From the NCBI GenBank assembly GCA_029779995.1, contig JAKOZM010000086.1, positions 1 to 6,393 on the forward strand: DNA of 6,393 nt, given 5' to 3'. Numbering within the stretch: the stretch's first letter is position 1; each line of letters starts with the position of its first letter. A model generated the notes under the pieces. It saw only the letters and a list, made by a program, of their open reading frames with translations, did no database searches and was not told the DNA's origin. Below are positions 2,034 to 4,547 of the stretch, in pieces. This DNA is from Actinomycetes bacterium. GTDB taxonomy: Bacteria; Actinomycetota; Actinomycetes; S36-B12; UBA10799. The position numbers and the translations under genes were made by a program.

Positions 2034-4547
2034 ATGAGGCCAACAGTCACTACCCCCGTGGTCGTCGCAGCCATGATCCTGGCCACCGCAGCCCCCGCCG
2101 CGGCGGCCAACAGCCCCCGGCCGAGACTCAGCCTGCCGACGGCGAAGACATCGGTGGCCGCCCCCATCACCGCCACCGTGCGACTGCCAGCGGGGCAGCG
2201 ATCCGTGCGGATCCAGACCCGCTCCCAGACCTCCACGTGGCAGACCGTTGCCAACGGCCGCACGAACTCATCGGGCACCGCGAAGATCCGCTTCACGACC
2301 TACCAGGACGGCAAGTACCAGGTCCGCGCCGTGGCAGGCGGGGCGAACAGCGCCCGCCAATCCTTGCAGGCCACCTATCCCACAGCCGCGCCGCCGCAGG
2401 AGTCGTTGGCGCCAATGCGCGCCGGTGCGTTGCGGATCGCGAAGGGGGCCACCGGTTCGGTCAAATCCGGGGACTACACCGTGACCGTCACCGGCTCTGG
2501 AGTGCGCGTCACGGATGGTGCTGGCCGCACGGCCTGGGCCAGCAAGGCCGGCACCCCGTTCCTGATCGCGAGCCGCTCCACCCTGCGGTGGTTCCAGCGC
2601 AGCACAGCGGGCGCCTTCTGGGCCCAGGTCCAGCGGCGCACGAGCCTGACCGATCAGCGGGTCACGGCAGTGCGCACCTCCGGGGACACCGTGACACTGC
2701 TCGGCACCTTGCGCGGCGACGGCAAGAGCGCCCGCTACACGATGGCCCTGCAGCCGTCGGGAGCAGCACTGCAGATGCGCGTCACTTTCGCCGACAACTC
2801 CCAGGTCAGCCCGAACAGCGTGCAAGTGATCTCCGAGCGGGCGTCAAATGCCGGGATACACGGCTTCGGCAATCAGTACCAGGGCTTCGACCTCTCCGGG
2901 CAGCTCCTGCCGATCCTCGTGCAGGAGCAGGGTGTGACCCGCGGGGAGGAACCCGCGGCCAAACTCGTGGATGCTGCCACGTGGGGTGCCGGCACCATGC
3001 AGACGACCTATGGCGGGTGGCCGACCTACGTCACCGACCAGAACCGCTCCTTCAGCCTGGTCGACAACCGCGCTTCGGGGGCACTGTCGGTCGCCGATAT
3101 GCGCAAGGCGAACCTCATCGGGCTGGAGTCGTTCGCCCCGACATTCACCGCCACCGTCCAGGCCGCGGACAGCCCGGCCGGCATCGTCAAGGCCCGCGGA
3201 GCCGCCATCACGCGGCCACCGTTGGCCGGCTGGGTCCAGAACGGTGCGGTGCTGGGCCTGCAGGGCGGTACAGCGAAGGTCCGGCAGGTGGTCGCCGACA
3301 TGCAGGCGGCCGGCACCAAGATTTCGGCGGTCTGGCTGCAGGACTGGGTCGGCAAGCGGGTGACCACCTTCGGCGAGCAACTGTGGTGGACCTGGCAGTT
3401 GAACCGCGCCACCTACCCGGACTGGGAACAGATGGTCGCCGACTTCAACGCCCAGGGCATCAAGGTGATGACCTACGTCAACCCCTTCGTCATCAACCAG
3501 TCGCAGGTCAACGGCCAGCCGATCGAGAACTTCTACGCCCAAGGTGAGCAGAAGGGTTTCCTGGTCAAGAACCAGCGCGGCGGCACCTACGTCGTGCAGA
3601 CCATCGGTTTCCCGACGGCCCTGGTGGATCTGACGAATCCCGATGCGCGCGACTGGTTCGCCGACATCATTGCCAAGCAGGTGCTGGGCGTGGGGGCCAG
3701 CGGGTTCATGGCGGACTTCGGGGAGTACCTGCCGATGGATTCCGTGCTCTTCAAGGGCAAGGCGGCTCGCCAGCACAGCCGCTGGCCACAACTGTGGGCA
3801 CAGACAGTTCGGCAGGCGTGCACGCAGGCGGGCGTTCCCGACTGCGTGTCCTTCTTCAGGTCGAGCTACCTGGGCAGCCCCCGTAATGTGCCGCTGATGT
3901 GGGCCGGCGACCAGATGGTGAACTACGCCCGCGAGGACGGGATGCGCAACGCCGTCCTGGGCATGCTCGCCGGCGGAGTGTCTGGAGCACCGTTGTGGCA
4001 CAGCGACATCGGTGGCTATACGAGTGTCAATGCCGCGGTCACCAACTTCCTGCGCCCGCCGCAGCTCAACGCGCGCTGGGCCGAGATGCAGGCCTTCGGC
4101 GTCGTCATGCGTACACATGAGACGAACCGCCCGACCCTCAACCAGCAGGTGTACGACACTCCTGAGACAAGGGCGCAGTTCGCCCGCGCCTCCCAGATCT
4201 ACGCGGGCCTGCATGACTACCGGGCGAGCGTGATCGACGAGGCGGTGCGCACGGGTATGCCGGCGATGCGCCACGGATGGTTGGTATACCCGGGAACAGA
4301 CGCCGCGGCGGCCGACGAGCAGTTCTTCCTGGGCGACCATCTGCTGGTGGCGCCGGTGTACGCAGAGAATGCGACCAGTGTCGATGTTGTGTTCCCGCCC
4401 GGGCAGTGGCGCCACGTTCTGACCGGTGAGGTGTATTCGGGACAGGCGACCGTGCCCGCACCGATCGGCACACCCGCCGCGTTCGTCTTGGTCGGGGATC
4501 CGGTCGGTGAGCAGATCCTGAGCCAGTTACGGTCGGCTGGTCTGTAG
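2034..4547 (+). CDS. Secreted GH31 glycosidase, YihQ (sulfoquinovosidase)-like, with N-terminal Ig-like domain
   Basis: An 837-residue exported retaining alpha-glycosidase. Residues 1-25 form a signal peptide (hydrophobic VVVAAMILATAAPAAAA, likely cut before Asn26). Residues about 30-116 look like an Ig-like beta-sandwich (TSTWQTVANGRTNSSG... QDGKYQVRAVAGG) absent from YihQ. The GH31 N-terminal beta domain follows (HGFGNQYQGF at 276-285, QEQGVTRG at 297-304), then the catalytic barrel. The nucleophile is Asp561 in GFMADFGEYLP and the acid/base is Asp626 in MWAGDQ, matching YihQ D405 and D472. Later conserved blocks are HSDIGGY (656-662) and MRTHETNRP. Of the YihQ sulfosugar-binding set Q262/Q288/R301/W304/Y508, this protein has Gln410, Gln436, Gln449, Trp452 and Tyr662, so the sulfonate-binding Arg is Gln. 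The family is certain, but substrate is open: sulfoquinovosides or a related non-sulfonated alpha-glycoside. ATG 2034 is chosen because it gives a complete signal peptide; the frame continues open upstream to 1659 inside proS, but homology stops. No clear Shine-Dalgarno site is seen. Confidence 0.93.
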   Translation: MRPTVTTPVVVAAMILATAAPAAAANSPRPRLSLPTAKTSVAAPITATVRLPAGQRSVRIQTRSQTSTWQTVANGRTNSSGTAKIRFTTYQDGKYQVRAVAGGANSARQSLQATYPTAAPPQESLAPMRAGALRIAKGATGSVKSGDYTVTVTGSGVRVTDGAGRTAWASKAGTPFLIASRSTLRWFQRSTAGAFWAQVQRRTSLTDQRVTAVRTSGDTVTLLGTLRGDGKSARYTMALQPSGAALQMRVTFADNSQVSPNSVQVISERASNAGIHGFGNQYQGFDLSGQLLPILVQEQGVTRGEEPAAKLVDAATWGAGTMQTTYGGWPTYVTDQNRSFSLVDNRASGALSVADMRKANLIGLESFAPTFTATVQAADSPAGIVKARGAAITRPPLAGWVQNGAVLGLQGGTAKVRQVVADMQAAGTKISAVWLQDWVGKRVTTFGEQLWWTWQLNRATYPDWEQMVADFNAQGIKVMTYVNPFVINQSQVNGQPIENFYAQGEQKGFLVKNQRGGTYVVQTIGFPTALVDLTNPDARDWFADIIAKQVLGVGASGFMADFGEYLPMDSVLFKGKAARQHSRWPQLWAQTVRQACTQAGVPDCVSFFRSSYLGSPRNVPLMWAGDQMVNYAREDGMRNAVLGMLAGGVSGAPLWHSDIGGYTSVNAAVTNFLRPPQLNARWAEMQAFGVVMRTHETNRPTLNQQVYDTPETRAQFARASQIYAGLHDYRASVIDEAVRTGMPAMRHGWLVYPGTDAAAADEQFFLGDHLLVAPVYAENATSVDVVFPPGQWRHVLTGEVYSGQATVPAPIGTPAAFVLVGDPVGEQILSQLRSAGL

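Follow-up and report, generated by a model that had tools for sequence, protein, structure and literature searches.

The stretch of DNA described here, a 6,393-nt window of an actinobacterial contig (JAKOZM010000086.1, assembly GCA_029779995.1), encodes P0001, a YihQ-like protein of glycoside hydrolase family 31 (GH31) in which the arginine presumed to bind the sulfonate group in sulfoquinovosidases (SQases) is replaced by glutamine (Gln449). Judging from its sequence, this member of the YihQ-like branch is probably, on balance, a retaining exo-alpha-glycosidase that is exported and, outside the cytoplasm, cleaves an alpha-glucoside without a sulfonate group. The Gln type is a wide group across several phyla and not a small odd subgroup, the Arg/Gln state has switched at least four to five times on supported branches, and a loop at residues 522-524 changes together with residue 449. 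Residues of P0001 were mapped onto E. coli YihQ by aligning the two proteins (PDB chain 5aed), and the gene and its relevant positions are the following.

2034..4547, + strand: YihQ-like GH31 gene encoding P0001, 837 residues by translation (open reading frame (ORF) 2034-4544, stop codon to 4547)
2034..2111, + strand: N-terminal hydrophobic stretch, likely a signal peptide, about residues 1-26 (hydropathy; end set by eye)
2124..2375, + strand: extra immunoglobulin (Ig)-like N-terminal beta-sandwich, about residues 31-114 (strands of the model; weak Big_1 match)
3261..3263, + strand: Gln410, equivalent to YihQ Q262
3339..3341, + strand: Gln436, equivalent to YihQ Q288
3378..3380, + strand: Gln449 (CAA), replacing YihQ R301, presumably sulfonate-binding
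3387..3389, + strand: Trp452, equivalent to YihQ W304
3597..3608, + strand: loop 522-525 (Q-T-I-G), equivalent to YihQ E366-F367-G368-E369; residues 522-524 covary with 449
3714..3716, + strand: Asp561, catalytic nucleophile, equivalent to YihQ D405
3909..3911, + strand: Asp626, acid/base, equivalent to YihQ D472
4017..4019, + strand: Tyr662, equivalent to YihQ Y508

The residue spacings and YihQ correspondences claimed in a preliminary description of this DNA are exact in the alignment to 5aed, and both catalytic Asp are kept; D561 and D626 are both Asp in 53/53 of the nearest matches and in all 120 listed matches of the wider Gln type. R301 and W304 of YihQ are taken here to bind the sulfonate of sulfoquinovose. 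The recognition set of P0001 reads QQQWY in place of the QQRWY or KERWY of the four solved SQases, the latter set being that of AtSQase (K245/E270/R283/W286/Y491) and the former that of YihQ and two other solved enzymes. An extra tryptophan, W451, stands beside W452 in P0001 (LWW motif). In the accessible part of one source the sulfonate-recognition residues of SQases are described as conserved, and kcat/KM values of 1e5 to 6e5 per M per s are given for three of these enzymes (PMC11968277).

P0001 has the barrel and C-terminal domains, the fold and the two catalytic Asp of GH31. A Pfam scan places PF01055 at residues 413-719 (141 bits) and PF21365 at residues 741-811 (58 bits), and the protein passes the YihQ-derived NCBIfam model NF007746 (PRK10426 alpha-glucosidase) with 654 bits versus a curated cut-off of 553. 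The AlphaFold model has a mean predicted local distance difference test score (pLDDT) of 94, and its best Foldseek matches in the PDB are all SQases (for 8r56, root-mean-square deviation 2.3 Å over 701 columns and template modelling (TM) score 0.94, target-normalised); a Myxococcales member is likewise nearest to SQases by sequence.

Among the best 120 of 213 matches of P0001, position 449 is Gln in 54 and Arg in 66. The best 53 (P0002-P0054) all carry Gln449, so that the residue, whose conservation in close homologues the preliminary description had singled out for checking, is no sequencing accident, and chance or sequencing error at this position is ruled out. Arg occupies the position in 66 of the 67 remaining listed matches, P0108 being the sole Gln protein there. 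P0045 shows an odd residue in the Tyr column (662), which is probably due to misalignment or to wrong joining of the ORF. A Myxococcales relative used as query gave 2635 matches, and all 120 of those listed have Gln449. As a control, a spirochaete query from the SQase clade gave 7204 matches; the 120 listed, which are 64-69% identical to the query and sample part of the SQase clade, have Arg in 119 cases and His in one (P0290). This last protein, representative of a Salmonella enterica YihQ cluster of 5643 sequences, has the set QQHWY, with His for Arg301.

Loci were also collected with actinobacterial peptide patterns (WWTWQL and VWLQDW types) from one genome per species, a sample whose proportions are no census. 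The 77 loci found comprise 28 Gln, 46 Arg and 3 unscorable cases (L074, L076, L077), with Gln at loci of, among others, Pseudomonas, Microvirga, Bradyrhizobium, Myxococcales, Spirochaetia, Planctomycetota, a Symploca metagenome-assembled genome and Moraxellaceae. Actinomycetota, Myxococcota, Spirochaetota, Chloroflexota and Pseudomonadota are among the phyla with the Gln type. The source of the window is itself probably a Candidatus Nanopelagicales bacterium, to judge by how some relatives are named. Relatives occur at E <=1e-60 in 7/166 genomes of the order Nanopelagicales and at E <=1e-80 in 50/282 Myxococcota, 48/296 Spirochaetota and 2/369 Pseudomonas-class genomes, counts that include the genomes serving as search centre. 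Searches of Myxococcota and Spirochaetota yielded 60 loci, 49 with Gln, 4 with Arg and 7, more distant, with neither (L110-L116). Several Myxococcota loci have other pocket variants, possibly further undescribed specificities: HERWW (L095-L097), AQQWY with a V-L-W motif (L098-L102, L104, L105, L109), AQQWC (L106) and KQQWY (L108), beside plain QQQWY in L103 and L107. The preliminary description had supposed an uncharacterised GH31 subgroup annotated by default as sulfoquinovosidase; the conserved subgroup is real and its nearest solved structures are SQases, but the source annotation of Gln-types is mostly "alpha-glucosidase", with "sulfoquinovosidase" on three (P0028, P0185, P0215). We know of no substrate for this large group of apparently exported Gln-type enzymes.

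The replacement at 449 is accompanied by changes in the loop 522-524. In the catalytic part (residues 270-820), 541 columns could be scored; when 116 Arg rows are compared with 203 Gln rows, column 523 separates the two states in 319/319 rows and is the best of the 540 columns other than 449; the balanced accuracy is 0.986 for column 522, 0.978 for column 524 and 0.945 for the next-best column. Arg rows mostly have D-Q-G or D/E-F-G at 522-524, and Gln rows mostly N-T (outside Actinomycetota) or T-V/T-I (Nanopelagicales type); the loop types found with Gln include N-T-D/S, T-V/A-G-F-P and Q-Q-G-V. The set was then enlarged by 180 rows to 502, 8 of the added rows being neither Arg nor Gln; its rows are not independent, because 120 of the added rows are SQase-clade matches and some added loci are repeats (e.g., L087/L036). 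Here Q or F stands at 523 in 238/239 Arg rows and neither of them in 247/252 Gln rows, and residue 522 is acidic in 237/239 Arg rows. Contrasts between sister or near proteins point the same way: P0050 (Gln, E-T-V) versus L002 (Arg, D-Q-N), P0108 (Gln, E-L-V) standing among D-Q-G proteins, and L069 (Arg, N-Q-G) among Gln-types. Since the loop changes along with Gln449, an altered specificity is argued for. The suggestion of the preliminary description that the enzyme may act on a different sugar is strengthened to this extent.

The history of the two states was followed in quick trees with Shimodaira-Hasegawa-like approximate likelihood-ratio (SH-aLRT) support only and some long branches. The Arg/Gln state has to change 5 times in a tree of 108 rows and 6 times in a tree of 104 rows built without the loop columns and the 449 motif, where 4 changes are forced by well-supported branches; in a reduced tree of 55 rows 8 changes are required, 5 of them forced by supported branches. 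In the 104-row tree, column 523 followed the Arg/Gln state in 4/4 independent supported pairs. The hypothesis that all Gln rows form one clade was rejected (two-tree approximately unbiased (AU) test, p 1.5e-9). A single origin of the T-V-G-F-P-type loop for the Nanopelagicales Gln-types and the spirochaete group was likewise rejected (two-tree AU test, p 1.8e-5), and under the quick tree this loop looks convergent in the two groups. The Spirochaetota loci L134-L144 are Gln-types whose loop reads T-V-G-F-P or T-A-G-F-P, and 5 of these 11 entered the tree test.

A GH31 tree had been proposed in the preliminary description, and in all three trees the four solved SQases form, with lactobacilli, one long-stemmed clade of their own, apart from the clade of the window. 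The neighbours of the SQase clade vary, being Gln-types of Pseudomonas and Planctomycetota in the 104-row tree versus spirochaete Gln-types in the 55-row tree. Because this placement is unstable, derivation of the SQase clade from Gln-types is put forward as a hypothesis only.

Most members of the branch seem to be exported. The highest 13-residue mean hydropathy of P0001 within its first 65 residues is 2.27, and pLDDT is below 50 at residues 1-16 and 18-21; by this measure P0001 departs from YihQ-type SQases, for which a cytoplasmic location without signal is a trait. The match of the N-terminal domain to Big_1 is weak (E 4.2e-4, below the Pfam cut-off). As a crude criterion, applied without a signal-peptide predictor, a 13-residue mean of >=1.8 in the first 65 residues was counted as a leader in proteins of >=720 residues. 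A hydrophobic N-terminus was thus found in 47/51 of P0001-P0053, in 65/65 of P0055-P0121 (Arg-types plus P0108) and in 108/113 of P0122-P0241, in total 220/229, and by eye the leaders include signal peptides, single anchors, a lipoprotein type and a twin-arginine-like type. Internal control windows exceeded the criterion in 1/240, 0/240, 8/238 and 4/97 cases, and SQase-clade matches of 640-700 residues had a hydrophobic N-terminus in 0/116. To judge from these leaders, predicted export is a mark of the YihQ-like branch and not of the Gln state.

Gene neighbourhoods were surveyed at local loci, and the ORFs of 77 loci and the window were clustered. No sulfoglycolysis or sulfolysis cluster stands beside the GH31 gene within the 6.4-kb window. 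At 10 loci, 6 with Gln and 4 with Arg, the 20 neighbours scanned with Pfam are unrelated genes, e.g., for a squalene-hopene cyclase, a START protein, an amidase, short-chain dehydrogenases, an ABC-2 transporter and phenylalanyl-tRNA synthetase. Among 74 neighbours from 20 Spirochaetota and Myxococcota loci, no typical sulfoglycolysis family is found in the 25 commonest of 87 families, and the widest ORF cluster besides GH31 spans 6 of these loci. The ORF clusters that cross genera are, where scanned, common families (ABC ATPases, short-chain dehydrogenases, alpha/beta hydrolase, acyl-CoA dehydrogenase, DUF520). Short-chain dehydrogenases are immediate neighbours of GH31 in L037 and L056, with different best models, and lie within three genes of it in three Dietzia loci. 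As a positive control, the locus L065 (Levilactobacillus, SQase clade) has at 677-5523 genes for SftI-like, transaldolase-family and aldehyde dehydrogenase proteins and a GPH symporter; the match to sulfoquinovose isomerase SftI reaches 377 bits, below the cut-off of 700, and from its gene content the locus looks like a transaldolase-type sulfoglycolysis cluster.

The other genes of the window, assigned by Pfam, are these.

2-175, - strand: start of an IS4/5-type transposase gene (DUF4096, E 1.3e-19), beside the proS 3' end and running off the window
243-1991, - strand: proS, with tRNA_edit domain
4558-5031, + strand: free-standing YbaK-like tRNA-editing protein
5170-6000, - strand: DUF4081-GNAT protein
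5997-6392, - strand: ispG, end of gene

ATG 2034 is taken as the start of the GH31 gene because the in-frame GTG found further upstream, at 1659, falls within proS of the opposite strand and the codons after the ATG encode a hydrophobic leader. The YbaK-like gene begins 10 bases past the GH31 stop codon, near proS, and its product may serve ProS as an editing partner in trans.

A chemical rationale for the proposed function can be outlined. GH31 enzymes act by retaining double displacement with two Asp, and in P0001 D561 as nucleophile and D626 as acid/base would carry it out. In SQases the Arg and the acidic loop may form one electrostatic unit for sulfonate binding, the loop probably lying against residue 449 and balancing the charge of the Arg. 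Replacement of both (Gln449, Q-T-I) would leave a neutral pocket suited to a C6 that carries a hydroxyl or some other uncharged group, and an alpha-glucoside without sulfonate would then be cleaved outside the cytoplasm. By analogy with sulfoquinovosyl glycerol, the natural substrate might, at a guess, be alpha-glucosyl-glycerol or an alpha-glucosyl lipid.

Several observations weigh against this proposal. Of the five recognition positions, four are as in YihQ, and a sulfonate could still accept a hydrogen bond from Gln, so that residual or true SQase activity is possible. The loop rule has 6 exceptions among the 172 later-added Arg/Gln rows: Q is kept at 523 in 5/252 Gln rows (L098, L101, L102, L104, L106), and one of the 239 Arg rows (L097) has neither Q nor F there. 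An acid at 522 also occurs in 40/252 Gln rows, including 28/54 rows of the Nanopelagicales type. A sign test on the four independent pairs gives p 0.125, the pairs being too few for significance. The pocket loops are less certain in the model than the whole (block pLDDT 81 and 89 for 441-460, 84 for 521-530). A hydrophobic N-terminus is borne by the actinobacterial Arg-types too, and one Spirochaetota Gln-type, L146, has no obvious leader. A gene of the 3-hydroxyisobutyrate-dehydrogenase family lies near the GH31 gene in six Pseudomonas loci; the two of these that were checked fit 2-hydroxy-3-oxopropionate reductase best and score 145 and 152 bits with the sulfolactaldehyde reductase model, whose cut-off of 348 they miss by a wide margin. 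Finally, K or R at residue 415 is enriched in the Gln rows of the enlarged set (187/252, versus 36/239 Arg rows), and K415 could be a compensating charge.

This last residue matters for the view that P0001 is still a sulfoquinovosidase, in which Gln449, Trp452, a water held by Tyr662, loop amides or a relocated base such as K415 would bind the sulfonate and the exported enzyme would free sulfoquinovose outside the cell. Such an activity seems fairly unlikely, yet it would agree with the retention of Q410, Q436, W452 and Y662, with nearest structures that are all SQases and, according to the accessible part of the source, with GH188 groups that keep a modelled site intact despite an altered sulfonate-site residue (PMC11465081). 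It sits poorly with the Arg present in 119/120 of the listed SQase-clade matches, with the joint change of the loop and residue 449 and with sampled loci that have no adjoining sulfoglycolysis cluster. The preliminary description had named another Arg or Lys in the pocket as evidence against its reading: among columns with R or K in >=75% of a Gln group, none is both invariant among Gln-types and lacking in Arg-types, and the enrichment at 415 is what stands of that objection. Most candidate basic columns belong to one Gln group only or occur in Arg-types too, K441 and R388 being conserved in the Nanopelagicales type only and K at 288, 543 and 638 in the wider Gln group only; residue 512 is weakly enriched for a basic residue in the Gln groups. 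K415 itself, which the AlphaFold model puts in a helix (412-425), is present in 85% and 79% of two Gln groups versus 33% of actinobacterial Arg rows and 12% of SQase references, hence neither fixed in the former nor absent from Arg-types. An acid-for-base swap at 448 (mostly D in actinobacterial Arg-types, mostly K in the wider Gln group) was considered and fails in the clade of the window, which has E, S or Q.

A pocket for another C6 substituent, on a 6-deoxy, 6-O-acyl, 6-O-methyl or uronic alpha-glycoside, is also unlikely; W452 is kept and W451 added, and several loop types accompany Gln as if substrates varied, but sequence alone cannot tell such a group from a free C6 hydroxyl, and without the Arg a carboxylate becomes less probable. 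It is very unlikely that Arg and Gln drift near-neutrally in an exported branch whose members, Arg-types included, share one neutral substrate and never depended on sulfonate. The repeated switching inside the exported branch would fit such drift, as would the sampled exported Arg-types L002, L004, L010 and L029, which have no sulfoglycolysis cluster beside them; it poorly explains why the loop residues change with 449 and why each state is strongly conserved within a clade. Cleavage of a non-sulfonated alpha-glucoside is the reading preferred here. A broader proposal is offered tentatively and is rather doubtful as it stands: the YihQ-like GH31 enzymes would be mainly exported, phylum-spanning glycosidases of non-sulfonated alpha-glycosides, in which Arg301 and the acidic D/E-[F/Q]-G loop form a removable module, gained and lost repeatedly, with the cytoplasmic SQases as one derived branch.

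In the accessible parts of two sources, YihQ-type SQases are treated as one monophyletic group with conserved features, and YihQ-like GH31 genes are taken to mark sulfoquinovose degradation in genomic and metagenomic data (PMC13219744, PMC8397734). GH31 was screened in the latter with a motif from the signature residues of Speciale et al., which, from the portion available, would probably leave Gln-types out (PMC8397734). No description of Gln at the R301 position of GH31 was found in the open literature, a coverage outside which the main structural and subfamily papers lie, and the available portions of PMC9061262, PMC10755693, PMC12890257, PMC13372026, PMC10108472 and PMC9594981 have nothing on the R301-equivalent residue. 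If Gln-types spare sulfoquinovosides, similarity-based calls would overcount the capacity for sulfoquinovose degradation, and a check of residues 449 and 522-524 would help. The repeated switches also yield natural pairs for testing sulfonate specificity, such as P0050 (Gln) and L002 (Arg) of the Nanopelagicales type.

Among known systems, P0001 is closest to the GH31 SQases (YihQ, 5aed/5oht; A. tumefaciens, 5ohy; BmSQase, 8r56; E. rectale SftG, 6pnr), with which it has in common the fold, the catalytic Asp pair and the Q/Q/W/Y residues. It differs from them by Gln for Arg, the altered loop 522-525, W451, the leader, the Ig-like domain and a window without sulfoglycolysis genes, and is 29-32% identical to them in structural alignments. 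The actinobacterial Arg-type YihQ-like GH31 proteins (Nocardioides, Dietzia, Actinomadura, Prauserella; P0055-P0121 except P0108) belong to the same branch (44-54% identity) and have the LWW motif and a hydrophobic N-terminus like P0001, but carry Arg449 and mostly a D-Q-G loop. Other GH31 enzymes such as YicI have the fold and chemistry in common with P0001 at a greater distance (K. aerogenes YicI, 8t7z: target-normalised TM score 0.67, 18% identity). The GH188 SQases, as far as the accessible part of the source describes them, include subgroups altered at a sulfonate-contact residue, as in P0001; unlike P0001, they form a family dependent on nicotinamide adenine dinucleotide (NAD), a backbone amide makes the contact, and the site, as modelled, remains intact (PMC11465081).

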